A stretch of DNA of 64,000 bases from Zingiber officinale (taxonomy: Eukaryota; Streptophyta; Magnoliopsida; Zingiberales; Zingiberaceae): positions 96,145,171 through 96,209,170 of the forward strand of contig NC_056005.1 of the NCBI RefSeq assembly GCF_018446385.1. Direction: 5' to 3'. Shown one piece after another: positions 1 through 56,745 of this stretch. Every line of letters starts with the position of its first letter. Positions within the stretch are counted from its first letter, which is position 1. A program made the translations under genes and the position numbers. Under the pieces are notes generated by a model. It saw only the letters and a program-made list of their open reading frames with translations, did no database searches and was not told the origin of the DNA.

Positions 1-420
1 TGATCTTGTCAAGTTATCCGCGTATAAAGGTTTCCCAACCTACGAACCAATCATACTCAATACTTTCTGTGACCAACAATCTGGTGGTAAACCATGGATT
101 TGGATCCAAGATGGGACTAGCTGATCATCCTCATGGAAGAGAAAACACCTTAGCATAATCTTTAGAAAAATGGGAATTCCGAAAGCAAAATAAGACCCTC
201 CTTGTAATACTCCATCTCGATTCTCTTTTGTATCAAAATGATAGACCACCCACTTACTTTTGTGCGTGAAAAATTTGTAGTGAACCTTCCGTTGATTGAA
301 TATCGTATAGACTCCATTTTTCCTGGATGTTGGCTTATGAAACAACCAACAAGGCAAAAACCCAAGGTGTCTTCGATGTCATCAATATCATCAAAATCGA
401 AAGATAGTCTCTCACCTTTA
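1..420 (-). mobile_element. LINE ORF1-like (DUF4283) coding relic, downstream part
   Basis: The minus strand reads as a DUF4283-type domain, the N-terminal domain of the nucleic-acid-binding ORF1 of plant L1-type LINEs (also found in some stand-alone plant proteins). Recognisable pieces are LVGCFISQHPGK, a KWVVYHFDTKENRDGVLQGG segment and WIQIHGLPPDCWSQKVLS, which match the usual order of this domain. The frame is not continuous here: the matching pieces lie in two overlapping frames, so it is a decayed copy. The upstream part of the same frame resumes at 10042 beyond two nested insertions. It runs off the left edge, so the rest of the element, including any reverse transcriptase, is outside the window. 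A host DUF4283 gene is the alternative. Confidence 0.6.
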
Positions 421-504
421 AATGTGGAACCACCACATCAGCGGCCCCCCTAGAGTCGGTCTCACAGATATGGAGGGAGGTAAATGCAGGTACACAGCTG
501 AAAG
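421..504 (-). mobile_element. tRNA-derived SINE, 3' part (split by Copia)
   Basis: This is the 3' half of a SINE on the minus strand whose 5' half lies at 9915-10024. The 17-bp target duplication ATAGTCTCTCACCTTTA is present perfectly at 404-420 and 10025-10041, which shows the SINE jumped into the LINE-like sequence before the Copia element jumped into the SINE. The segment containing GTGAGACCGACTCTAGGGG is shared with a second copy at 15762-15927. Confidence 0.8.
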
Positions 505-1589
505 TGTAGGACCGTGATCGTTCGATAGAGGGGGGGGGTGAATATCGATTCGAAAAGTCGAGTAAAACTACGCAGCGGAAAAGTAAATGAACACAGTTGT
601 TTTTACTTCGTTCGGAGCCTGTGACGACTCCTACTCGAAGGCCCGTGGTCCTTGACCACTTTCGTTGGGCAATCACTAGCAATTCGAATATAATTACAAA
701 ATGAATACAGGAAATGCAAGTGAAACAAAGTAATATCGACAAAGAAATTAACTAAAAACCGAAGGAGCACTTTGTCGGAGCTTTGTTGGCATCGCAGGCA
801 CGTAGAGCAGTAGGACCAGCAGTAGAAGAGTTCTCAGATTGATTGTTGAAGAAGCTCCATCCCTGGGGCTTCTTTTATATGCTGCTCCGGGCGCCTGGAC
901 CCCTTCCGGGCGCCTTGGTGAGACGTGGCAGGTCTAATCAGCGAACTCCACGTGGCGACGACTCGACCTGGATAAATTTCACCTCCGGGCGCCCGGATCC
1001 CTTCCGGGCGCCCGTACCTCCTGTTTCCAAAAACTTCCTTTCCTGCAAAATAGAGTTAGTCTGAGGTACATATGTATTCTGCAACACAGATTGTTAGCAC
1101 AATTTATGAAATAGAATTAACAGTAAAAATATGACTTAGATTCCGTCTTTCCGAGACCAGAATCTAGTCACGATCTCGACTTAGATATCTGAAATGGATC
1201 TAAGCCGGATCGACGCCTAATGTTCCCTTCCCGGGAACGCGTCCTCGCAGTCACTCCCCTCCAGTGACTTACCTCACTTACCTGCCAGACGTCCGGTCAG
1301 CCCTTCGACCCGTCTGGACTTCTCGCCAGCTATCCGGTCAGCCCGTCGACCTAGCTAGACTTCTCGCCAAGCGTCCGGTCAGCCCATCGACCCGCTTGGA
1401 CTTCTCGCCAGCTATCCGGTCAGTCCGTCGACCTAGCTGGACTTCGTGCCAGACATCCGGTCAGCCCGTCGACCTGTCTGGACTTCCCCTGCACACTCGA
1501 TCAAAGTGTCAGACAACAACAAAACTAACTTAACCTATTTGTCATTCATCAAAACCTAGGTTAGACCGTTAGTGTTACCCGCACCAACA
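505..1589 (-). repeat. 3' LTR of Copia copy A
   Basis: This terminal repeat matches 8832-9914 almost base for base. It starts TGTAGG and ends CCAACA on the plus strand. On the element's own strand a TATA-like ATATAAAAGA lies at 871-880. Upstream of it on that strand are paired GC palindromes (CCGGGCGCCCGG at 985-996, a near copy at 1004-1014), followed further upstream by the hairpin array at 1285-1481. Confidence 0.93.
1285..1481. repeat. Five-unit covarying hairpin array inside the LTR
   Basis: Five tandem units of about 39 bp each fold on themselves. The outer arms are CCAGACG/CGTCTGG, CCAGCTA/TAGCT(A)G, CCAAGCG/CGCTTGG, CCAGCTA/TAGCTGG and CCAGACA/TGTCTGG. An inner GGTC/GACC pair and a loop close to AGCCCGTC are shared by all units. 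Arm sequences differ between units but stay complementary, so pairing is kept while sequence changes. The array lies in U3. The same array is at 9610-9806 in the other LTR. Confidence 0.9.
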
Positions 1590-1604
1590 ATCTCCCCCTT
1601 TTTG
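1590..1604 (-). other. Polypurine tract of Copia copy A
   Basis: On the minus strand the sequence AAAAAGGGGGAGAT abuts the 3' LTR, the expected site for plus-strand DNA priming in reverse transcription. Similar purine tracts recur inside the element near 1715, 2165 and 6885. Confidence 0.8.
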
Positions 1605-4600
1605 ATGGAATGACAACCTGGTTAAGTTAGTGAAAGAACGTAAAAAACAGGTACATCAGTTTTAAAGTTAGTTTTAGTGTTTTCAATTTTGGTTTATCTA
1701 ACTTAACCACCTAACCCTCCCCCTTTGGCATTCATCAAAAAACAAGGATAAGCAATCATAGTGTAGAATTACTGTAAAAAATAAGCACAGCTAATCTTGA
1801 AAAAATATTTGAGGTTGGCTCAAAATTCAAAGATAAAAGTATAATCTTTAAATCCAAGTAAAAAAAATAAGTTGACTTGGGGGAGACAAGTTGAATTTTG
1901 AAAAGTATAAATTTAAAGTTAATCAAGTTCAATTTTTTCAACTTCAATTTAACGTATAAAAAAAATTTTCAACTTTAATTTTTCAAAACAAAGCAACAAT
2001 TAAACAAGTAAGATTAAATTTGCAATGAGGTTTAAAAATTAGGTGGGATTAAACTTCCAAGTTTTTTTTACCACTTAGTTAAATTAAACTTTTTATAAAC
2101 TAATGGTCAGACATAAATTAGTTTTAAAAAGCATTTTTCAAACACACAGAATTTTAATTAATTTCTCCCCCTGAACTTGATACTTAAATTTAAACAGCTG
2201 TCTAACCAATTAGGTACTAACTAACTATCAGAAGATAGTAGCTTTCACTTGGTTAGTCAGATTAAGGTGATTATAAACAGTCAGTGTTTGACTTGACTGA
2301 TGATCTTAATCTGATTACTGTCTGATTTGTATTTAACTTCCAGACTTATGCTGATGCACTGAAATAAGCATCTTAAGTCCAGACAGTTGGCCTATGCATC
2401 TCACCCCTTTCTATGTTCGTCAAACACAAGCAAGGTAAACCTATGGTGTTGGTGAGATGCTCAAAAACTAGTCCTATGGGTACATGCTTTCTAAGGATTC
2501 AAAACTAGTCCAAGGCCAAAAGTGTTTTTGAAAAACTAAAAATAGGAAAGTTTTGAAAACAAACAAGTTTAACTTATAATTTGAAAAAAAACATGTTTGA
2601 AAATAATTTAAAAAATCCTAGTCTATTGAGCACATCCCTAATTTTCGACGTAAGTTGCTAAACTCACTTTCAGGGAGTGGTTTTGTGAAAATGTCAGCTA
2701 AATTTGATTTGGACTCAATGTATTTGAGTTCAATATCACCTTTAGTAACATGATCCCTGATAAAGTGGTGCCTAATTTCAATATGTTTGGTTCTTGAATG
2801 ATGCACAGGGTTCTTGGTTAAGTTAATTGAACTTATATTGTTAATTAATACTTTTACATTTGTGATGTTTAAGTTGAAATCTTTTAGAGTATGCATCATC
2901 GATAATAATTGTGCAACACATTCACCTATAGCTATGTATTCTGACTCAGTTGTAGATAGAGCAACACAATGTTGCTTTCTACTAAACCAGCTAACAAGTG
3001 ATGAACCTAATAATTGGCATCCACCACTTGTGCTTTTGCGGTCTAATTTACATCCAGCATAATCGGAGTCAGAATATCCTATTAGTTCAAAATTATTGGT
3101 CCTAGGATACCAAATTCCTACATTTGTTGTTCCTTTAAGATATCTAAAAATTCTTTTAACTTGTGTCAAATGGGATTCCTTAGCACAAGTTTGGTATCTA
3201 GCACACATACTAACTACAAATAAAATATCAGGTCGGCTTGCAGTTAAGTACAGTAGGCTACCTATTGCACTCCTATTTTCCATTTGAGTCATTATCTAAG
3301 ATTGTGTTTACTGCCATAGGTGTTTTTATTTCTTTTGTATTTTCCATCCCGAATTTTTTAAGTAATTCTTTAGTGTATTTGTGTTGATAAATATAGTTTT
3401 CTTCATTTGTTTGTTTGATTTGTAATCCTAAGAAATAAGTTAATTTTCCTACTAGGCTCATTTCAAATTCTTTTTCCATTAGATTAATAAATTCCTCTAA
3501 AAAGTCTGAATTTGTTGAACCAAATATTATATCATCTACATATATTTGTGCAATAAATATGTCTGTATTTAATGATTTAACAAACAAGGTTGGGTCAATT
3601 TGACCTTGGTTGAATCCTTTAGATGTTAAGTAAGATGTTAGCCTTTCATACCATGCCCTGGGTGCTTGTTTAAGTCCATATAATGCTTTCTTTAACTTAA
3701 ATACATAATCAGGGTGTTCTAGACTTTCAAACCCAGGAGGTTGACCTACATAAACTTCTTCTTTAATTAGTCCATTAAGAAAGGCGGACTTAACATCCAT
3801 TTGGTATAGTTTGAATCCCTTATGGGCTGCATAACTTAGTAACATTCTAATGGATTCTAATCTGGCTACTGGGGCATAGGTCTCATCATAGTCAAGCCCT
3901 TCAACCTGACTAAACCCTTTGGCAACTAGCCTAGCCTTGTTTCTAGTAATTTCTCCAGTTTCACTTAATTTGTTTCTGAATACCCATTTTGTTTCTATTA
4001 TTTTCTTATTCTTAGGTGGTGGTACTAGGTCTCAAACTTCATTACGCTCAAATTGGGCTAGTTCTTCTTGCATAGCTATAATCCAGTCTGGGTCTAGTAG
4101 GGATTCATCCACTGTTTTGGGTTCTATTTTTGAAATTAAGGAGATTTGACTCAAGTTTCTAAAAGATGATCTGGTTTGAACTCTTAGGTATGGGTCACCA
4201 ATTATTTGATCAGTTGGATGGTTGGGATTCACTCTTATAGTTCTAGGGGGTTTATTTTCTTGATGTTGTTCCTCTTCTTCATGACTTAGAGTTTGGTTGG
4301 TTTCTGGAGCAAATTCAGGTGGTTGTGTAAGTTCTAAGTTTTGTTTAGTTTCTTCAAATTTTACATTAGTAGTTTCTTCAATTTTTAAGGTAACCTTATT
4401 GTAAATTCTATAGCCTCTACTATTTAGGGAATATCCTACAAAAATTCCATTTTCAATTTTAGAGGAGAATTTTCCTAAGTGTTCTCTTGTATTTAAGATG
4501 AAAACTGGGCACCCAAACACTTTAAAATATTTTATATTGGGTTGTTTATTATAAAATATTTCGAAGAAGGTTTTGTTGTGGGTTTTATTTATTGTAGTTC

Positions 4601-5639
4601 TGTTCTGTACATAGCAGGCTGTACTAACAACTTCTGCCCAAAAGTATTTAGGTAGGTTATACTCATTTAACATTGTTCTAGAGGCTTCAAGTAAGGTTCT
4701 ATTTTTTCTTTCTACAATCACATTCTGTTGGGGGGTTTTAGGGCATGAAAATTCATGATGGTAACCATTTTCAAGACAAAAACTGTTAAAGTTGTGATTT
4801 TTAAATTCTCCTCCGTTGTCACTCCTGATTCTTTTAATTTTAATATCTTTTTCATTTTCAATTTGTTTACAGAAATTTATAAAAATTTCAAAAGTTTCAT
4901 CTTTATGTTTTAAGAATTTTACCCAAGTAAACCTAGAATAATCATCTATAATTACTAAACAATATAAGTTTCCATTTATAGATTTGACTCCATGGGAGTC
5001 AAAAAGGTCTAAATGTAGAAGTTCTAATATTGAGTTAGTTTGTGGTTGATTTGTTTGTTTGTGAGTGGATTTAGTTTGTTTACCTTGTTGACAAGCATTA
5101 CATATGGTTGAATCTAAGTTAGGTAATTTTGGTAAGCCTCTCACAAGTCCATTTAGTTTACTTATATTTCGAAAGTTGGTGTGAGACATTATTCTATGCC
5201 ATAACCATGTTTCTTCTTTTTGTGTTAAGTAACACTTAATGGAAGAAGTGGTTAAATTGATGGCATAGATGTTGTCTTTTCTAAAACCTTTTAGGCTTAT
5301 GGTAGGAGTATCTAGATGTTTGATTAAACACTCTGTGGATAGAAATTTAACCTTATACCTAGTATCACATAATTGACTTATACTTAGAAGGTTGTATTTA
5401 AAATTTTCAACAAGTAAAACATTTGTAATTATAAAGTCTATTTTTAATTCAATATTACCTATACCAATTACCTTGAGTTTGCCGTTGTTTCCAAAGGCAA
5501 CTGTTCCTAAGCTTTTGTAAGTGAGTTGAGTGAACTTGGTGTGATCTCCAGTCATATGTTTGGAGCAACCACTGTCCAAAATCCACTTGGTTTCCTACAG
5601 TAAGTAGGATTTAACGTTAGTCATTTTATTTATGACCAG

Positions 5640-6376
5640 ACAAAATTTTAAGTTTAAAATTGGAGTTTTGACATTAATTTTTAAGTTTAAAATTGAAGTT
5701 TTGAAATTAATTTTTAAGTTTAAAATTAAAGTTTTGAAATTAATTTTTAAGTTTAAAATTAAAATTTTGAAATTAAGTTTAAAATTGAAATTTTGAAATT
5801 AATTTTTAAGTTTAGAATTAAAATTTTGAAATTAATTTTTAAGTTTAAAATTAAAATTTTGAAATTAATTTTTAAGTTTAAAATTAAAATTTTGAAATTA
5901 ATTTTTAAGTTTAAAATTAAAGGTTTGAAATTAAATTTTAAGTTTAAAATTAAAATTTTGAAATTAAGTTTAAAATTGAAATTAATTTTTAAGTTTAAAA
6001 TTAAAATTTTGAAATTAATTTTTAAGTTTAAAATTAAAGTTTTGAAATTAAATTTTAAGTTTAAAATTAAAAATTTGAAATTAAGTTTAAAATTGAAATT
6101 AATTTTTAAGTTTTGAAATTAATTTTTAAGTTTAAAATTAAAATTTTGAAATTAATTTTTAAGTTTAAAATTAAAATTGAAATTAATTTTTTAAGTTTAA
6201 AATTAAAGTTTTGAAATTAATTTTTAAGTTTAAAATTAAAATTTTGAAATTAAGTTTAAAATTGAAATTAATTTTTAAGTTTAAAATTAAAGTTTTGAAA
6301 ATAATTTTAAGTTTAAAATTTTGAAATTAATTTTAAGTTTAAAATTTTGAAATTAATTTTAAGTTTAAAATTTAGA
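5640..6376. repeat. AT-rich tandem repeat spacer between gag and protease
   Basis: About twenty imperfect copies of a roughly 32-bp unit built from AAGTTTAAAATTAAA and TTTTGAAATTAATTTTT fill the interval between gag and the protease region of copy A. The unit is a near-palindromic alternation of TTTAAA/AATT words. The long plus-strand Lys/Phe/Leu open frame here is a by-product of the repeat. At the same point, copy B (about 23.54-23.83 kb) holds a different AT-rich array. Confidence 0.85.
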
Positions 6377-8810
6377 ATTTAAGCCTTATTCATCTCACCC
6401 GATCTATATTATCAATATGGGAATCCTATGATTTTGCGAGATGAAATTTGATTTTTAATTATGGAGTTTTGGTTTAACTTGTGTTAGATTCAGGTTTAGT
6501 CTTGGTCTCTACAAACATGCATTTTTCGGATAAACTTCTAAGCTTGGTGAGTCACATGGACGTCATTAGAAGTAACCAACCTTTCGAGGTTTTCCGAATA
6601 GTCCTATCCACGGAGCTTAGTACTAAACCTTGGTCTAACTGATTAGGATCCATTTAAGGGTAGCTTCGGTCAGTTCCACTTGGCCAAATGCACCAGATCG
6701 AAACCATATCTTTCTAGACATGCGATGCCCAAGTTTTCCTAACGTACTATCATCCAAAAATTTCACCAGTATCATTGATTCAAGTTAAACTTGGTTTCTA
6801 ATCCTAATTACCCTGCCGGGTTAGTTTATTTTGGGTTACCCTGTCGGGTAAGTTAGTTTTGGAGGTGCCAGCTATTTTGGAGCCTCCCCCTGAATTATTG
6901 GCCATTAATTTAAATTTTGGTTTTAGGTTTGTGTCGATTCTTTTTATAGTTATGGTTAACTTGGTGATAATTTTGTTGATTTTTAAGGTGTTTAAATTTT
7001 GAATTTGATTTAGGTTTGTATTTTGGATTTTGGTTTGGTTTATTCGATTTTATATAATGTATTTTTTCTTTAGGTATATAATATTGATTTAGTCCTATTT
7101 GCGTGGTTAAGCACGCTTTCGGAACCCAAGCTAAATTGGTTGATTTGTATTGGGTTATTAATGATTTGAAGGTTTTATTTGAATTCGACTTATATCCTAG
7201 TCCGGTTTTATTATAGCATGCTTTTTGATTATTTAGGATTAAGTTTAGATTTTTTGATCTTGTTGTGAATTTTTCTAACATCTCCTTTAAATTGTTTATT
7301 TCATTTTTTAATGATAAATTCTCCTCCTCAAGTGTTAGATCTTGAGTTGGATTCGAATTTTTTATTTGTTCCTTGAGGTCTTGATTTTCCTCAAGAAGTG
7401 ATTTGTTTTCATTCTCTATTTTAATTAATTTACTATTTAAACAAGAAATAATTCTAAAAAAATTTTTGTTTAAATTAAAGTATACCTCATTAGGGCCTTC
7501 GGAAACGAGTACGGACTCGTGGCTTGTTTCGGGTTCAGACCCGTCTTCATCTTCCGACTCATCTTCTGTTTCGACTTCTCAATGCGAGGTGGCTCTGATG
7601 TTTCTGCTCTTCTTCCTCTGATTCGTCCGAGGAGTCGTCCCATGTTGCTTTGAGGGCCTTCTTTTTGGTTGGCTTCGGTTTATCGAACTTCAGTTTTGGG
7701 CATTCGTTCTTGTAATGTCCCTTTTTGTTGCAGCCGAAGCAAGTCACGTTCTTTTGATCTGATGGAGAACTGATCTTCTGAAGGTCCTTTGTGCTGAAGC
7801 TCATTTTTCTCCTGGTGAACATTTTTCTTACCAGGTTCACCAGGTGTTCTTCATCTTCGGAGTCTTGGTCGGGATCTTCTTCATACTCAGGCTTACTCTT
7901 CTTTTCTTTGGAGGAACCTGCAAATAAAGCTATACCTTTTTCGGCTCCAGCATTAGTTTGTTCATGTAATTCTAATTCACAGAAAAGCTCATCTAATTTT
8001 AATTTAGAAAGATTTTTAGAAATTTTGTAGGCATCTACAATTGATGCCCACAAACTATTACGTGGAAAAGCATTTAATGCGTACCTTATTAAGTCTTTAT
8101 TTTCCATCTGGTGGCCTATCGCATGAAGCCCGTTAAGGATGTCCTTGATTCTTGCGTGGAGCTGATTCGCCGTTTCACCTTCCTGCATTTTTATATTAAA
8201 AATTTTATTTAAAAGCAAGTCTCGTTTTGTTACCTTGGCGTCGCTCGTTCCCTCGTGCAGTTCGATCAATTGTCCCATAGCTCTTTAGCGTTTTTGTGTG
8301 GACCGACTCTGTTCAGTTCTTCTCTTGTCAATCCGCACTGTAGAGTGTTGATCGCTTTATTTTTTTCTTCAAGTCTGCTGTCCAGTCTTCAGGATCCAGT
8401 AGATTCCCGGAGTTGTCCACTGGAATTTTGTAGGGTCTCGTAATGCTCATCCACTGGTCGAAGTCTGTTTTGAGGTAAACCTCCATCCGCTTTTTCAAGT
8501 ACGGAAAATCGTCCCCGTTGAAGAGTGGAGGTCGTACTGTGCTGAATCCTTCTGTCTGAGACATTTTAGTCCTGCGCACAGACGAAAGAGAAGAAACAAA
8601 AAATCCCAAGACTTGGTCTTGGATTAGTAGTGCGGGAAGAGAGAAAAAATAGTAGTAAAAATCTAGATTCGTGTTGCACCAATTTAGATTAATTAAAAAA
8701 TATTAAAGTAATGATACACCAGTTTTAGAATTAAGCGTCGAACTGAAAACAAAAAAGGAAAAAAAAAAATTTCACCCCCAGTCTGATTGGTGGTTGCACC
8801 AAATCAGAGC

Positions 8811-8829
8811 GGTACCTGCTCTGATACCA
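8811..8829 (-). other. Primer binding site (initiator tRNA-Met type)
   Basis: Minus-strand TGGTATCAGAGCAGGTACC lies two bases inside the 5' LTR. TGGTATCAGAGC is complementary to the 3' end of plant initiator tRNA-Met, the usual primer for Copia elements. Confidence 0.9.
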
Positions 8830-8831
8830 CT

Positions 8832-9914
8832 TGTAGGACCGTGATCATTCGATAGAGGGGGGGTGAATATCGATTCGAAGAGTCAAGTAAAACTACGCAG
8901 CGGAAAAGTAAATGAACACAGTTGTTTTTACTTCGTTCAAAGCCTGTGACGACTCCTACTCGAAGGCCCGTGGTCCTTGACCACTTTCGTTGGGCAATCA
9001 CTAGCAATTCGAATATAATTACAAAATGAATACAGGAAATGCAAGTGAAACAAAGTAATATCGACAAAGAAATTAACTAAAAATCGAAGGAGCACTTTGT
9101 CGGAGCTTTGTTGGCGTCGCAGGCACGTAGAGCAGTAGGACCAGCGGTAGAAGAGTTCTCAGATTGATTGTTGAAGAAGCTCCATCCCTGGGGCTTCTTT
9201 TATATGCTGCTCCGGGCGCCTGGATCCCTTCCGAGTGCCCTGGTGAGACGTGACAGGTCTAATCAGCGAACTCCACGTGGCGACGACTCGGCCTGGATAA
9301 AGTTCACCTCCGGGCGCCCGGATCCCTTCCGGGCGCCCGGACCTCCTGTTTCCAGAAACTTCCTTTCCTGCAAAACAGAGTTAGTCCGAGGTACATATGT
9401 ATTCTGCAACACAGATTGCTAGCACAATTTATGAAATAGAATTAACAGTAAAAATATGACTTAGATTCCGTCTTTCCGAGACCGGAATCTAGTCACGATC
9501 TCGACTTAGATATCCAAAATGGATCTAAGCCGGATCGACGCCTAATGTTCCCTTCCCGGGAACGCGTCCTCGCAGTCACTCCCCTCCAGTGACTTACCTC
9601 ACTTACCTGCCAGACGTCCGGTCAGCCCTTCGACCCGTCTGGACTTCTCGCCAGCTATCCGGTCAGCCCGTCGACCTAGCTGGACTTCTCGCCAAGCGCC
9701 CGGTCAGCCCATCGACCCGCTTGGACTTCTCGCCAGCTATCCGGTTAGCCCGTCGACCTAGCTGGACTTCGTGCCAGACATCCGGTCAGCCCGTCGACCT
9801 GTCTAGACTTCCCCTGCACACTCGATCAAAGTGTCAGACAATAACAAAACTAACTTAACATATTTGTCATTCATCAAAACCTAGGTTAGACCGTTAGTGC
9901 TACCCGCACCAGCA
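8832..9914 (-). repeat. 5' LTR of Copia copy A
   Basis: This is the partner of the LTR at 505-1589, with the same ends, TATA region, GC palindromes and five-unit hairpin array (9610-9806). It abuts the primer site on the inside and the GAAAG target duplication on the outside. Confidence 0.93.
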
Positions 9915-10024
9915 GAAAGCGCATAGCCGGGACGCTAACCCCAGGCAAAGACATCTCGAGGATTGAACCCTGGACCTTTCGACAATGAAACTATGCACCC
10001 CCAGTTGTGCTATGCCCTGGGGAC
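9915..10024 (-). mobile_element. tRNA-derived SINE, 5' part with A and B boxes
   Basis: Read on the minus strand, the element starts GTCCCCAGGGCATAGCACAA. It carries an A-box-like TAGCACAACTGGGGG and a B-box-like GGGTTCAATCC, the internal RNA polymerase III promoter of a tRNA-derived SINE. The other half is at 421-504. Together they make a SINE of roughly 190 bp. It is not a tRNA gene, because it lacks an acceptor stem and continues into a SINE body. Confidence 0.82.
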
Positions 10025-12159: not shown

Positions 12160-14340
12160 GGATGGAGCAAGATCAAAGAGTTCGAGGACGTGGGATAAAT
12201 AAATGCTTCTAGACAGAGAATGAGGTCCAAGTACTAATTGCAACTCTTCAAGATATGACTTGTGATCCTTCATGGAAGACAGATGGCGGTTTTAAAAATA
12301 ATTACATGGCTAAGGTGTATAATGTAAGTACCCCGGATTAGTTTTGATGTAATCAACTTAGTTAAGTTAGGCTCTATGGTTTGATCCCTTGTGTCCAAGT
12401 ATGCAGGGATTTAAGAATACAAAAATTCGAGCGGAAAATGCAGCGAACGAGAGAGATGACACATCAAGCGAGTCAACAGGCTTGATACATCCGAGGGATG
12501 AGGAGCTATGGAAGAGTATATTGGTGCACGAGATGGACGTGCTTGTTGCTTCCAAGGGACGAGAAGTTGGGGAGGAAGTTTGCTCGAGGAGAAGACCAGA
12601 GTTAGGTTTGGATGAGCTCAACTCTGAATGACTGAGTATCACCGAAGCGATCGGACAAGAAAATAGTCAACTTCATAGTTGACCATCTTCAGGCGCTTGG
12701 ACTAGGTCCAAGCGCTCGAACTTCAAGCGACTGGACTAGGTCCAGGTGCCCTGACTAGGTCCAGGCACCCAGACTTCAGGTGCCCAGACTAGGCCAAGGC
12801 ACCCGAACTTCAGGTGCTCGGACTTCAGGTGCTCAGACTAGGCCAAGGCACTCGGACCAGGTGTAGGTTCTCGGATTATTTCAGGCACGTTAGCATGCCG
12901 TTGGTTGTAGAGGATTAGTACGGAGTCCACTCCAGCTGATTTCAGGTGCCTAGATGGGGTCTAGACGCCCGAGGAGCTTAATTCGTTGGAAAAAAGTCAT
13001 TACGGAGTGAATTGAGTCCAGGTGCCTAGACCAGGTCCAGGCATCCGAGAAGCACCACATTAGCAAACAACTAGTTATGACTAATGATCTATAAATAGAG
13101 CTCTGATGCTTAAAGTTTGAATAACACAAATTTTATTTTTCATTTTGTAAATATATTTTTGTTGTTCTACGCGTTCAACATCTATAAAGAGGTTATTCCG
13201 CCTATTTCGAAGGAAAACTTTTTATTGAAACTTTCACTGCCTTGGATTAGCAACATCCTCGATTGCAAATCAAATAAATCTTTGTCTCTTCCTTTAATTA
13301 ATGTTTTTATTATTTTTAACTAATTAAATATGTTCTTGCTAAGTTCAATAGCAAGAGAAGGTTCTAATTTTTATTGCATGACTATTCACCTCTCTTTAGT
13401 TGACCTACCTGCATCTACACATAGGAGAATGCTAAGCAAGAACCCCACCCTTCCAAACAAGTTACACCTCATCTTGAGTAAAAAATTGAGTGGTTAAAGA
13501 CAATATTTCATATTATTAATGATATGTATAGGTAAAGTGGATGTCAATGGAATTATGTTGAGAACAAATAACATGTGAAAAGCAATGATTTGATAGCTAT
13601 AAAGCAATGGTTTGATAGCTATTGTTAGGTAATTTTATAAATTGTGTCCAAAATTTTTTACTCTCTCAAATATTTCATTTTTATTCTGTAAGCTTTTTCA
13701 ATCACGTATATTTTCAATTTTGTAAACTCACAAAGAGACAAAAGGAATGTGGGATTTCAAATTTTTGAAATCAACTTAAATTAGTCTATGGAAGGGATAT
13801 AGCTATTGGTGTTGTTGTTTAGGGGCACGTACATGTTATTTACAATTTGAAAGTTGGTCAAAATAATGAAAGTGGAGGTGAAAATCTAAGCGCATTATGT
13901 CATTCTTCAAATGAGTACGATGAAGATAATAATGTATTTTTTTGAGTCAGATTCAAACCCAACTGCTTCATAGAACACTGATGTGACAAAATCAGCTACA
14001 AAACAAAAACAATCATTAACAACTGGAGATAAAATTATAAAGAGAATAAAATCAACAGTAACACATTTGGATATTATGACACAACTATACGACATGAAAA
14101 GTGGATTTCATACTTTTGTGGATAGTTTTAATGCACATTTTGCAACCATTGCAAATATCATGGTAGAAGATAATTTACGAAAAAAAATGACTTCAAAAAG
14201 AATGAAAGATGTGATTGTTGAGCTAATAAACCTTAGCCTTTCTAGTGGTGATGTATTCAAAGCAACTAATTATTCATTGTAGATAAGGACAAGATTGATG
14301 TGTTGTTCAATCTTCCTTTAGAGTTGCGAAGGAATTACGT
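12160..14340 (+). pseudogene. MYB/SANT-like (Harbinger ORF1 / LIMYB type) relic, interrupted
   Basis: The plus strand encodes a MYB/SANT-like DNA-binding domain of the Myb_DNA-bind_3 type: TENEVQVLIATLQDMTCDPS, then WKTDGGFKNNYMAKVYN up to 12322. After an LTR insertion it resumes with SKQVTPHLE, KIEWLKTIFHIINDMYR and SGCQWNYVENK (13.45-13.57 kb). The typical C-terminal part follows at 13983-14280 (MTKSATKQKQ... KRMKDVIVELINLSLSSGDV). Such domains occur in ORF1 of PIF/Harbinger DNA transposons and in plant genes derived from them. Stops and frame changes occur inside several blocks, and no DDE transposase is visible nearby, so it is a dead copy. Confidence 0.7.
12323..13429 (+). mobile_element. 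Old solo LTR, SIRE-like Copia
   Basis: A 1.1-kb unit starting TGTAAG and ending TCTACA interrupts the MYB relic. Its layout parallels the SIRE LTR of copy A in the same element orientation: an early TTGATG..TTAGTTAAGTTAG..TGCAGGGA block, a GC-rich run of short palindromic repeats (tccaggtgcc/ggcacc words, 12.69-13.05 kb), a TATA box CTATAAATAGAG near 13090, and a final TATTCACCTCTCTTTAG like the ATTCACCCCCCTCTA end of copy A. No internal region remains. The flanking pentamers TATAA/CATAG only partly match, so it is older than copy A. Confidence 0.6.
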
Positions 14341-18274: not shown

Positions 18275-19310
18275 TGTTGGATCGTTAAACGTCGATAGAG
18301 GGGGGGGTGAATATCGATTCAAAAAATAACGAGTATAAACGCAGCGGAATAAAAATTGGACACAATGAATTTTACTTCGTTCGGAGCCTGTGACGACTCC
18401 TACTCGAAGGCCCGTACTCTGTGAGTACTTTCGTTGGGCAATTACTAGCAGTTCAAAAATGATTACAATTTAAGGTACAGTAATGCTAGCAAAATAACGA
18501 AAATACCGACAAGAATTAAGAACAGAAAAGGAGTATATCGTCGGATCTTTGTTAGCGTCGCAGGAGCAAAGAGCAGTAGAGCAGGCAGTCTGAGAGTTCT
18601 GAGTTGATTCTGATCTCTGCCTCCACCCCATCTTTTATATGAAGCTCGGGGCGCCATGGATCCCTTCCAGGTGCCCTGGTGAGACATGGCAAGTCCAACC
18701 AGTGAGCTCCAAGTGGTGACGCGCGGTCAGGATATTTTTTGCCTCCAGGGCGCCCGAGTGCCTCCCGGGCGCCCGGACCACCTTTTTCCAGCGAACAACT
18801 TTCCTGCAAAACAACGTTAGTCCGAGACAAAATAGATCCTGCAAAACAAAGTGTTAGCATAATTAAAGTTCAACAAAGTAATAACAAAGAGTATGACTTA
18901 GATTCCGTCTTTCCGAGACCGGAATCTAGTCACGATCTCGACTTAGATATCCGAAATGGATCTAAGCCGGATCGACGCCTAATGTTCCCTTCCCGGGAAC
19001 GCGTCCTCGCAGTCACTCCCCTCCAGTGACTTACCTCACTTACCTGCCAGACGTCCGGTCAGCCCTTCGACCCGTCTGGACTTCTTGCCAGCTATCCGGT
19101 CAGCCCATTGACCTAGCTGGACTTCTCGCCAGCTATCCAGTCAGCCCGTCGACCTAGCTGGGCTTCGTGCCAGACATCCGGTCAGCCCGTCGACCTGTCT
19201 GGACTTCTCCCGCACACTCGATCAGAGTGTTAGACAACAACATACTAACTTAACCTGATTTGTCATTCATCAAAACCTGGGTTAAATCGTTAGTGCTAAC
19301 CGCACCAACA
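18275..19310 (-). repeat. LTR of Copia copy B
   Basis: This LTR starts TGTTGG and ends CCAACA, a matching pair of inverted ends. It is diverged from the copy A LTR but collinear with it. It includes the GC palindromes (18748-18778) and a four-unit version of the hairpin array (19047-19202). Confidence 0.88.
19047..19202. repeat. Four-unit covarying hairpin array in copy B LTR
   Basis: Units of 39 bp have arms CCAGACG/CGTCTGG, CCAGCTA/TAGCTGG, CCAGCTA/TAGCTGG and CCAGACA/TGTCTGG around the common inner pair and loop. The CCAAGCG unit of copy A is absent, so unit number varies between elements while pairing is kept. Confidence 0.88.
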
Positions 19311-26087: not shown

Positions 26088-27691
26088 GGCTAAGCCGAAC
26101 GTAGGCGAGCCACTCCGTATATACCTGTCCTCCACCGAGCATGCTGTCGGCTCGGCGTTAGTGAAAGGAAGCGAAGAAGAGCAGCCCATATATTTCCTGA
26201 GCCACATTTTAAAAGATGCCGAGTCTCGCTACACTAGCCTCGAGAAGCTTGCGTTCGCTCTAGTCCTCGTCGCTCGGAGACTCCGCCCTTATTTCTTGGC
26301 ACATACGATCATCGTTATGACGAATAGCCAGTTGGGAAGAGTGCTCCTGAACCCAGAGGCGTCCGGGTGGACGACGGAGCTCAGTGAATTCGACATCCAG
26401 TATCAAGCCCGCTCGGCGATTAAGGTGTAGTCCTTGGCAGATTTTGTAACTGAGGTACACAATCCTGAGCCCGAAGCTTCGTGGAAAGTATTTGTGGATG
26501 GGTTATCCACTCGGCTCGATAGTGGAATCGGTATTTTGCTGCTTTCTCCTCAAGAAGAGCGGATGCATCTATCCGTCCGTCTGGATTACCGGGCAACAAA
26601 TAATGAGGTAGAATATGAGGCCCTCATAGCCGGCCTACAGGCCACGCGACATGTGGGAGCCAGCCAGGTGATACTATATTCTGACTCCCAATTAGCCGCT
26701 CAGCAACTCTCGGGGTCCTTCGAGATAAACAATGCAAGGCTCCGGCTCTACGCGGAGGCCTTTGAAAAGCTCAGAACTAACTTCATTGAGGTTGTCATAC
26801 AGAAGATCTCCCGATCCGAGAACTAGTCAGCAGATGAATTAGCCAAGCTCGCTAGCTCAATATCGTCGATCGTCTTCCAACATCCAATTGAGCAGATGTC
26901 CTTGGTGGCGCACATCGACCGGATGGAAGACCTCACATTCCCGAGCGATTGGAGAATAGCCATAATAGAATTTTTGCGTTCAGAGGCCACGTCGTCCGAT
27001 CGGGAGGAAGCCCAACTATTGAGGAGAAGAGCCGGTCGGTTCACACTCATTGGGGACCAGCTTTACAAAAAGGCGTTCTCCCGCCCGCTGCTGAAGTGTG
27101 TCAGCTCGGAAGATGCAGAATATATTCTCAGGAAGTACATCAAGGATCTTGTGGAGGTCATCCGGGCGGATGATCGTTGGATAGGAAGATCTTGCTGGCC
27201 GGATACTTCTGGCCAACTCTACAGGAAGACACCGCTCAGACCGTCACCATAATGCCGAGCGGAGACAGCTGGAGCTGGACCTAGTGGAGGAGGCGCGAGC
27301 TAAAGCAGCCGTCCGGCTGATCGCGTACAGGCAAAGAATGAAGCAGAATTACAACAGACGTGTAATTCCCAGAGCATTCCAGGTCGGCGACCTGGTATGC
27401 AAGGTGAAGTCGGTCGGCGATGTGAGCAAGATGGAAGCTCCCTGGGCGGGGCCCTTTAGAGTCGTCGAAAAGCTCTGATCGGGTGCATACTACCTGGAAG
27501 ATGAGGATGGACGGCAGTTAGAACGACTATGGAGCGCAAACCACCTCTAGTCGTACCGAGCGGGGTAAAAGGTGCGCCAGTGTAATTTATTTCATGTGTG
27601 CTCCGTTCGTCTGTATCCTTTGGCTACAGAGTAAAAATTAAAAAAGACAAGGGATATGAGCATTTGGCATCGAATGGCAAAGCGCCTAGAA

Positions 27692-28335
27692 GACCGTCGA
27701 ACGCCGATGTTAAACTCTAGAGTCGGACCGACGACTATAAATCTCCCGGCTTGAAGACCGTCGAGCAGCGACGTTAAACTCTAGAGTCGGACCGATGACT
27801 ATAAACCTCCCGGCTTGAAGACCGTCGAGCGGCGACGTTAAACTCTAGAGTCGAACCGGCGACTATAAACCCCCTGGTCGGAAGACCGTCGAGCGGTGAC
27901 GTTAAACTTTAGAGTCGAACCGGCGACTATAAACCCCCCGGCTTGAAGACCGTCGAGCGGCGACATTAAACTCTAGAGTCGAACTGACGACTATAAACCC
28001 CCCGGTCGGAAGACCGTCGAGCGGCACCATTAAACTCTAGAGTCGGACCGGCGACTATAAACCCCCCGGCTTGAAGACCATCGAGCGGTGACGTTAAACT
28101 CTAGAGTCGGACCGGCGACTATAAACCCCCCGGTCGGAAGACCGTCGAGCGGCGATGTTAAACTTTAGAGTCGAACCGGCAACTGTAAACCCCCTGGCTT
28201 GAAGACCGTCGAGCGGCGACGTTAAACTCTAGAGTCGGACCGGCGACTATAAACCCCCCGGCTTGAAGACCGTCGAGCGACGACGTTAAACTCTTGGGTC
28301 GAAGTGGCGACCATAAACACTCCGCTCGGAAGGTC
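27692..28335 (+). repeat. 64-bp tandem array, ten units, in the Gypsy 3' region
   Basis: Ten units with an exact 64-bp spacing start at 27692, 27756, 27820 and so on. Each contains GACCGTCGAGCGGCGACG, TTAAACTCTAGAGTCG, CGGCGACTATAAACC and an alternating CCCCGGCTTGAA or CCCGGTCGGAA end. The unit has two small self-complementary parts (CGTCG/CGACG and GTCG/CGAC) and the palindrome CTCTAGAG. The array lies between the end of pol and the antisense gene block. Confidence 0.92.
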
Positions 28336-55919: not shown

Positions 55920-56745
55920 GAGTTCTTTCCATAATTGGTCATGGTCATGGTCCTCTTTCCATAATTGGTCATGGTCCCGTTGACCAATTATGGAAAGTCA
56001 TTTTGTCGATGTGTGATTCATCCTCTGGATCGTAAATTACGGTCCAGAGAATCTTGACTGGTCTCTTTGTGGGGTGCCAATCAATTTGTGTGGATCAGTG
56101 GCGGATCTAGGGAAGAGTGGGGGTGCGCTTGAGCACTCTCTTGCTCCCGAAAAATTCCACAAGTATGTTGCAGTCTGAGGGCAACGAGAAGGAAGACAAG
56201 CTCCAATTCCTTTCTTTGAGCACCCTCTTTCTTTTTTGTCTGAATCCGTCATTGTGTGTGGTCATCCTCTAGACCGTAAATTGATGGAGAGTGATAACCT
56301 CATGTATAAAATAAGTAGGGATCATCACTCTCCATCAATAATGGAGAGTGGTCCATCCTCTAGTCCATGTTTTGTGGACCAAAGGATCCACGCTAGTTGT
56401 GTAGCTTAGATCAGCAAAACGCGGATTAGAGGATGAATCACTCTCCATCATTGGTAGAGAGTGATGACCCTATGTATAAAATAAGTGGGGGTCATAACTC
56501 TCCATCATTGATGGAGAGTGACTCATCCTCTAGTCCGCGTTTTACAGACCAAAGGATTCATGCTCGTTGTGTAACTCAAATCCTATGATCCGTAAAACAC
56601 GGACTAGAGGATGGGTCACTCTATATCCTTGGTGGAGAGTGATGACCCCATGTATAAAATAAATAGGGGTCATCACTATCCATCAATGAGATAGTGACTC
56701 ATCCTTTAGTCGACTTTTTGCGGACCAGAAGTTCCGTGCTCCCAC
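55920..56745. repeat. Fold-back (nested palindrome) array
   Basis: A perfect 17-bp arm hairpin lies at 55955-55997 (CTTTCCATAATTGGTCA and its complement). From 56265 a unit of about 174 bp repeats nearly three times. Each unit holds GATGGAGAGTGATGACCCCA, a central TGTATAAAATAA (56303, 56473, 56651) and the inverted arm GGGGTCATCACTCTCCATC. It then has a second palindrome, CATCCTCTAGTCCGTGTTTT with its complement GTAAAACACGGACTAGAGGA. The array is interrupted at 56096-56254 by a small DNA transposon. I cannot name the family. Confidence 0.75.
56096..56254. mobile_element. hAT-like MITE inside the fold-back array
   Basis: The ends CAGTGGCGGATCTAG and CAATGACGGATTCAG (right end, reverse complement) are the common plant hAT terminal motif. 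The flanks TGTGTGGA and TGTGTGGT differ by one base, an 8-bp target duplication. The unit is 159 bp and non-coding. Confidence 0.7.

Follow-up and report, generated by a model that had tools for sequence, protein, structure and literature searches.

In the LTRs of a ginger retrotransposon we found arrays of tandem palindromes whose main unit types differ from one another solely by changes matched on both arms, while inside each type the two arms look independent. The covariation between types is ancestral and limited to a handful of amplified types. Since changes between types are paired and those within types are not, we infer that a few ancestral palindromic monomers would have been amplified as whole units.

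The Sirevirus-type host element and its palindrome array

The window, a stretch of 64 000 nt from the Zingiber officinale genome, contains a complete Sirevirus-type LTR retrotransposon of the Ty1/copia group on the minus strand (505–9914), which harbours the palindrome array in its LTRs (Table 1). LTR divergence is dated with a rate of 1.3e-8, and the K2P distance of 0.030 between the two LTRs then gives an age of about 1.2 My. Three of the six open frames scanned gave Pfam hits, in the sense order gag, integrase (rve) and RVT_2; the integrase thus precedes the reverse transcriptase, which is the copia order. The polypurine tract (PPT) has the form AGGGGGAG-AT-TG at the 3' LTR, and further copies of the octamer start at 1724 and 2172 (within 600 bp of the tract, minus strand) and at 6891. 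The primer binding site (PBS) TATCAGAGC follows a 5-nt AGTGG spacer. Around the junction of the PPT and the 3' LTR there is an inverted repeat with 21 of 24 positions matching, whose right arm lies 43 nt into the LTR, and the LTR end is C-rich, with a run of nine C in the sense direction 25 nt from the terminus. The published description of Sireviruses gives a mean of 28 nt for the inverted repeat at the PPT and a PBS TATCAGAGC placed after a 5-nt spacer, ATTGG or AGTGG (PMC2829016). We assigned the element to the Sireviruses because its PPT, octamers, PBS, inverted repeat and C-rich end fit the hallmarks given there (PMC2829016).

Table 1. Coordinates of the element, its palindrome arrays and associated features in the window
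Feature	Position	Strand	Remarks
Target site duplication GAAAG	500..504, partner 9915-9919		flanks the element
3' LTR	505..1589	-	1085 bp, TG...CA; array at sense 109-305, TATA at sense 711
TATA box GCATATAAAAGAAG	874..879	-	array ends 405 bp upstream in sense direction
Two TCCGGGCGCC boxes	886..915		directly upstream of TATA
Two TCCGGGCGCCC boxes	984..1013		CGG-CCG palindromes
Palindrome/hairpin array, five units	1285..1481	-	U3 of 3' LTR; sense strand is minus
Unit 1, type A	1285..1317	-	CCAGACG/CGTCTGG
Unit 2, type B	1326..1358	-	one mismatch, CCAGCTA/TAGCTAG
Unit 3, type C	1367..1399	-	CCAAGCG/CGCTTGG
Unit 4, type B	1408..1440	-	CCAGCTA/TAGCTGG
Unit 5, type D	1449..1481	-	CCAGACA/TGTCTGG
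Polypurine tract AGGGGGAG + AT	1590..1599	-	adjoins LTR TG
ORF, reverse transcriptase RVT_2	3276..4031	-	
ORF, GAG-pre-integrase, integrase core and SH3-like domains	4035..5594	-	
ORF, copia-type gag domain	7562..8284	-	28.4 bits, cut-off 27
Primer binding site TATCAGAGC	8818..8826	-	AGTGG separates it from the 5' LTR; CA-AGTGG-TATCAGAGC at 8818-8833
5' LTR	8832..9914	-	32 substitutions in 1082 aligned sites relative to the 3' LTR
Matching five-unit array	9610..9806	-	in 5' LTR
Related four-unit array (A, B, B, D)	19047..19202	-	in second LTR, ~80% identical, ending at 19310

Every unit is a 33-bp imperfect palindrome followed by an 8-bp spacer, which gives a strict period of 41 bp. Its inner stem, GGTC/GACC, carries a 3-nt bulge on one side and encloses an 8-nt centre; on the sense (minus) strand one more inner pair forms, so that the inner stem there has 5 bp and the loop 6 nt. 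In 200-bp windows over the array the C+G content is 0.60–0.64 and the CpG observed/expected ratio 1.09–1.12, a high ratio that other parts of the LTR share. The first-pass annotation had reported an array of hairpins with a period of about 39 bp in the U3 of a SIRE-type LTR. Repeat detection recovered all three arrays at the coordinates given in that annotation, the U3 position was upheld, and PPT, PBS, inverted repeat, C-rich LTR end and copia domain order agree with a SIRE-type element; the period, however, has to be corrected to 41 bp. Where the annotation counted three to four outer stems, each with its own complement, we distinguish the four types A–D, with B occurring twice, but unit 2 is mismatched on its right arm. 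The inner stem it described was recovered by folding and needs to be qualified by the bulge and by the fifth pair on the sense strand.

When folded alone, each unit adopts the stem described in the first-pass annotation plus the 3-nt bulge, and each of the five beats nearly all dinucleotide shuffles (z −2.0 to −3.5; 1–10 of 200 shuffles as good). For the full array folded as one plus-strand DNA we obtained a z of −3.2 (2 of 200 shuffles as good), and as sense RNA a z of −1.5 (16 of 200). A search for RNA families over positions 1–10000 of the window, up to an E-value of 1, returned as its only match mir-234 at 9826–9887, which is below the gathering score and lies outside the arrays. Extrusion of the units as cruciforms in double-stranded DNA we judge unlikely, because the bulged arms of 7 + 4 bp are short.

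Arm changes between and within unit types

Genome-wide, a pattern with a fixed core and free arms was found at 40 937 places (20 410 + 20 527), and its reversed control at none. Both haplotypes are present in the assembly, so that allelic copies are counted twice in all genome-wide counts. Loci for the sample came from searches with several queries: 8 of 40 matches to the window array, 30 of 41 to the second LTR, 30 of the 100 matches listed (of 40 937) to the free-arm pattern plus 20 further regions from that list, and 40 regions from the 83 matches to two older relatives. The single place with a double transversion (L089) was added. A first survey, with no minimum number of units per array, comprised 75 arrays and 348 units. 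The final sample holds 112 distinct arrays with 657 units, arrays of fewer than two units having been dropped and identical arrays merged. The unit scan allows transitions and requires a recognisable core, CCA/TGG ends and the ACTTC spacer; because of the required ends, arm positions 1–3 are partly conditioned, while positions 4–7 are unconditioned. Units left without a type numbered 43 of 657 in the 2 × 2 counts and 51 of 657 in the shuffle analysis. As ‘old’ we defined the loci L090–L128 together with L047, L073 and, of L060, the plus-strand array. The arrays contain between 2 and 9 recognised units, mostly 8 in the old subfamilies (32 of 42 arrays) and 4 or 5 in the younger ones (57 of 70).

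Exact copies of type B were observed in 87 of the 112 arrays, of A in 47, of D in 43 and of C in 39, and units of these four types with both arms exact make up 291 of the 657. As claimed in the first-pass annotation, these types are distinguished by paired differences: A and D differ by one pair, A and C by two, D and B by two, every difference being matched on both arms, and on a minimal tree drawn by hand about five paired changes link all four. The chance of differences that are all paired is 1.9e-6 under a plain null and 3e-5 to 1.6e-3 under conservative nulls limited to the 8 variable sites, so that at the origin of the types symmetry was either of importance or produced by copying. Young units have on average 6.59 of 7 outer positions paired, compared to 4.79 after the right arms were dealt out among the whole group; for old units the values are 5.66 and 5.00. 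Among haplotypes present in at least 3 of the 112 arrays we found no one-arm intermediates between A, B, C and D.

The old subfamilies also contain a possible fifth paired type, CCAGATA/TATCTGG, with 17 units assigned and exact copies in 3 arrays; the two one-arm forms between it and D occur in 3 arrays each, as often as the paired form. Hybrid units, which combine left and right arms of two different types, are rare (CCAAGCG/TAGCTGG was found in 4 arrays) and are to be expected from recombination within the core. A type with an A.A mismatch, CCAGACA/AGTCTGG, is exact in 5 of the 112 arrays (L111, L114, L118, L121 and L125), decayed in L112 and L116, and accounts for 20 assigned old units.

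Covariation within types was judged by 2 × 2 counts and by shuffles, with unit types from one genome standing in for true orthologues. At position 4 of type B, 13 755 units genome-wide have R/Y at the pair: 12 866 are unchanged (by subtraction), 532 are changed on the left arm only, 336 on the right arm only, and 21 on both arms compared to 14.4 expected (one-sided P 0.05–0.06). We take this as independence, because pooling units of different ages pushes toward an excess of doubles and allelic double counting makes the P-value too small. Among units with this core, a double transversion at position 4 was found at one place in the whole genome. In the sample, old B units (n = 230) have 6, 7, 7 and 2 double-arm changes at positions 1, 2, 4 and 5, with 5.45, 8.09, 8.07 and 1.74 expected. 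Over all groups and positions two cells fell below P 0.05: position 4 of young B, with 2 doubles and 0.28 expected (P 0.025), where one of the two (L089) came from the search for double changes and is to be discounted, and position 3 of old D, with 1 double and 0.03 expected (P 0.034). When the right arms were dealt out within types, the loss of pairing was significant for young C alone among the nine groups (34 of 2000 shuffles did as well), followed by young B (187 of 2000, L089 included) and CCAGATA/TATCTGG (285 of 2000). Older units with a GGCCC core were inspected by eye; among the first 100 of 602, position 4 of B is changed on the left arm only in 9 and on the right arm only in 9, none has exactly both arms changed at this position, and one unit, CCAACTA/TAATTGG, has both position 4 arms changed plus one further change. 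Significant covariation inside unit types was thus found neither in the sample nor at position 4 of B genome-wide.

The first-pass annotation had read the paired arms as a sign of pairing preserved by selection or copying. Ongoing covariation of this kind was not borne out, because arm changes within types look independent and one-arm variants recur at a spacing typical of LTRs. The alternative it named, in which a small number of ancestral monomers spread by amplification of entire units, describes the data largely, given the independence of the arms within types; our reservations concern the all-paired main types and the possible fifth type. Apparent covariation in a repeat array can therefore stem from a few amplified monomers and may mislead covariation tests that are applied to transposon repeats.

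One-arm changes appear to have been propagated. Among the first 100 of the 532 left-only places we observed 8 same-strand pairs 6.6–10.9 kb apart, among the first 100 of the 336 right-only places 5 such pairs 4.4–11.9 kb apart, and among all 21 doubles no pair with LTR-like spacing. The share of rows in such pairs does not differ significantly between the two sides (16 of 100 left-only, 10 of 100 right-only, P 0.29). Comparison of the left-only with the right-only list gave four same-strand pairs within 13 kb, two at 82–83 bp, which are therefore in one array, and two at 6.2 and 9.7 kb. From their spacing and strand the one-arm pairs are likely to be the two LTRs of one element, so that carriers of such changes apparently still transposed, and a single broken pair in one hairpin does not seem to have stopped transposition.

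Left-only changes at position 4 of B, which leave a G.U pair in the sense RNA, outnumber right-only changes, which leave A.C, by 532 to 336 (P 3e-11). Decay of the type B stem is thus strand-biased, with more sense C>T than sense G>A, despite the identical 7-mer on both strands. At CG sites in the flanks, which lie outside any stem considered here, we counted 259 G>A and 186 C>T changes on the plus strand (P 6e-4), and because these sites lean the same way the bias in the stem may be mutational. Flanking CWG sites have no strand bias (185 C>T and 181 G>A on the plus strand), a count dominated by a few lineage-wide sites. The stem part of this comparison of CG and CWG decay between flank and stem was discarded, as units of different types had been aligned together and the result was confounded.

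The most variable positions of old B units (n = 230) lie in the bulge, at the loop edge and in the spacer, with minor variants of 20–50%; stem positions reach at most 27%, with a peak at CWG sites. The frequencies suggest that the variable positions are shared lineage variants. Some constraint on the stem in the source lineages is possible, although CG sites are also found among the variable spacer positions. In 309 of 328 young units the fifth inner pair is A–C on the plus strand, which corresponds to G.U in the sense RNA and A.C in the antisense; among old units A–C occurs in 162 of 329 and G–C in 105 of 329.

Candidate roles and origins of the palindromes

Judging from its sequence and position, we consider it reasonably likely that the ginger array is a variant of the palindromic repeated-motif (RM) region of Sireviruses, forming a distal cis-regulatory part built of 41-bp modules 405 bp upstream of the TATA box. 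In the published work, palindromic repeated motifs upstream of TATA are an LTR hallmark in 13 Sireviruses, some with the cores CGGTCTGACCG, CGGTCGACCG and CGGTCAGACCG, and a role in promoter control is put forward as a proposal (PMC2829016). The ginger units resemble these RM boxes (Bousios et al. 2010, PMC2829016) in that both belong to the same genus and are palindromic, CpG-rich repeats that lie upstream of TATA within the first LTR half, and the inner core GGTC...GACC is similar to motifs of Osr10, Osr8 and Vitis. They differ from the boxes described there in their form, that of 33-bp imperfect palindromes whose outer stems vary around an 8-nt centre, and in their regular tandem period of 41 bp. 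The published motifs begin 200–400 bp inside the LTR, and the mean distance from the end of their CpG island to TATA is 37 bp (PMC2829016), whereas the ginger array starts after about 110 bp of the LTR and stops 405 bp short of TATA, to which separate TCCGGGCGCC boxes lie closer. Types A and C contain the published CGG-CCG signature (CGGTC...GACCCG), which is absent from B and D (GACCTA, GACCTG). The boxes at 886–915 and 984–1013 fit the published CGG-CCG motif better than the 41-bp units do.

By analogy with these systems the array is probably cis-regulatory and may possibly be a small-RNA hotspot. The palindromes would function chiefly in the form of double-stranded DNA: host DNA-binding proteins would recognise them as repeated symmetric sites and could drive or tune the LTR promoter. 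With a period of 41 bp, near four turns of the helix, the units would all face the same side. Since transcripts that carry U3 at their 3' end allow the units to fold, small RNAs and methylation could also be seeded there, which is what has been reported for maize Sireviruses, whose palindrome-rich LTR region is a small-RNA hotspot according to two studies (PMC5311732, PMC10760457). There too the palindromes are clustered, lie in the LTR regulatory region and are predicted to fold; the maize motif is a different one, CACCGGACNNNGTCCGGTG, and small RNAs were mapped to that region (PMC5311732, PMC10760457). The paired differences would date from the origin of the types, and later copying would have moved whole units without keeping their arms matched.

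A broader alternative is that the source elements keep their palindromes matched, either by selection on hairpins in the sense RNA or by copying from arm to arm during reverse transcription. New types would then arise exclusively in matched form, a G.U pair would be less harmful than A.C, and the stems would be interchangeable modules around one fixed core; we regard this as unlikely. Taken separately, selection on sense-RNA structures would act at the 3' end of the genomic RNA, through packaging, dimerisation or stability, and would leave compensatory changes in the source lineages. Such a process would account for main types that differ solely by paired changes, with the low null chances given above, for the possible further paired type in the old subfamilies, and for the fifth inner pair, which is G.U in the sense RNA only in most young units. 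The prevalence of one-arm changes giving G.U over those giving A.C points the same way, but the flanking CG sites lean like the stems, so that this bias may be mutational. No consistent excess of doubles was found within types, moreover, and one-arm variants of either side recur at LTR-like spacing with no significant difference between sides. The spread of the mismatched A.A type in old arrays, the range of 2 to 9 recognised units and the full sense-RNA array, which folds just slightly better than its shuffles, also speak against selection on the RNA, and we hold it to be rather unlikely.

Hairpin arms might instead template each other during reverse transcription or repair, so that paired types would arise in one step without selection. 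Quasipalindrome correction is a mechanism of this kind known in principle, and the lack of one-arm intermediates between the main types, among haplotypes in at least 3 of the 112 arrays, is what it would produce. At position 4 of B, however, the doubles exceed independence by 21 − 14.4, or about 0.7% of the 889 changed units, so that recent copying of this change must be rare or absent, and we find the explanation quite improbable. Decay driven by methylation alone, in which C>T and G>A transitions on both arms would mimic covariation, is very improbable as an account of the types: it explains the variation within types, where most changes are C>T or G>A and many lie at CG or CWG sites, and the type differences at positions 4, 6 and 7 are transitions as well, but for the type differences it is mostly refuted, as position 5 separates A and D from B by a transversion pair (A–T against C–G) and independence predicts far more one-arm changes than doubles (532 + 336 against 21), yet the four main types are fully paired.

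The boxes BI and BII in the U3 of Tnt1 are tested activators. Like the ginger units they are repeated, partly symmetric modules in U3 upstream of a copia promoter; box I is called symmetric in the Sirevirus paper (PMC2829016). Literature listings on Sirevirus LTR palindromes and hairpins, tandem modules in U3 and ginger Copia elements showed no description of these units. If the array is read as a variant of the Sirevirus RM region, this palindromic cis region, published for grasses and some dicots, now extends to an abundant element of ginger, whose units, in the tens of thousands, could influence silencing as well as the control of neighbouring genes in this species.

Further repeats were observed in the window. 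Within the Sirevirus element a long AT-rich tandem array lies between the gag and integrase frames (5646–6380). A GC-rich 34-bp tandem repeat at 12734–12839 is possibly inside another LTR, about ten GC-rich tandem units of 64 bp with 87% matches occupy 27689–28318, and at 56280–56727 there are 2.6 copies of a 170-bp repeat whose unit seems to contain inverted parts.
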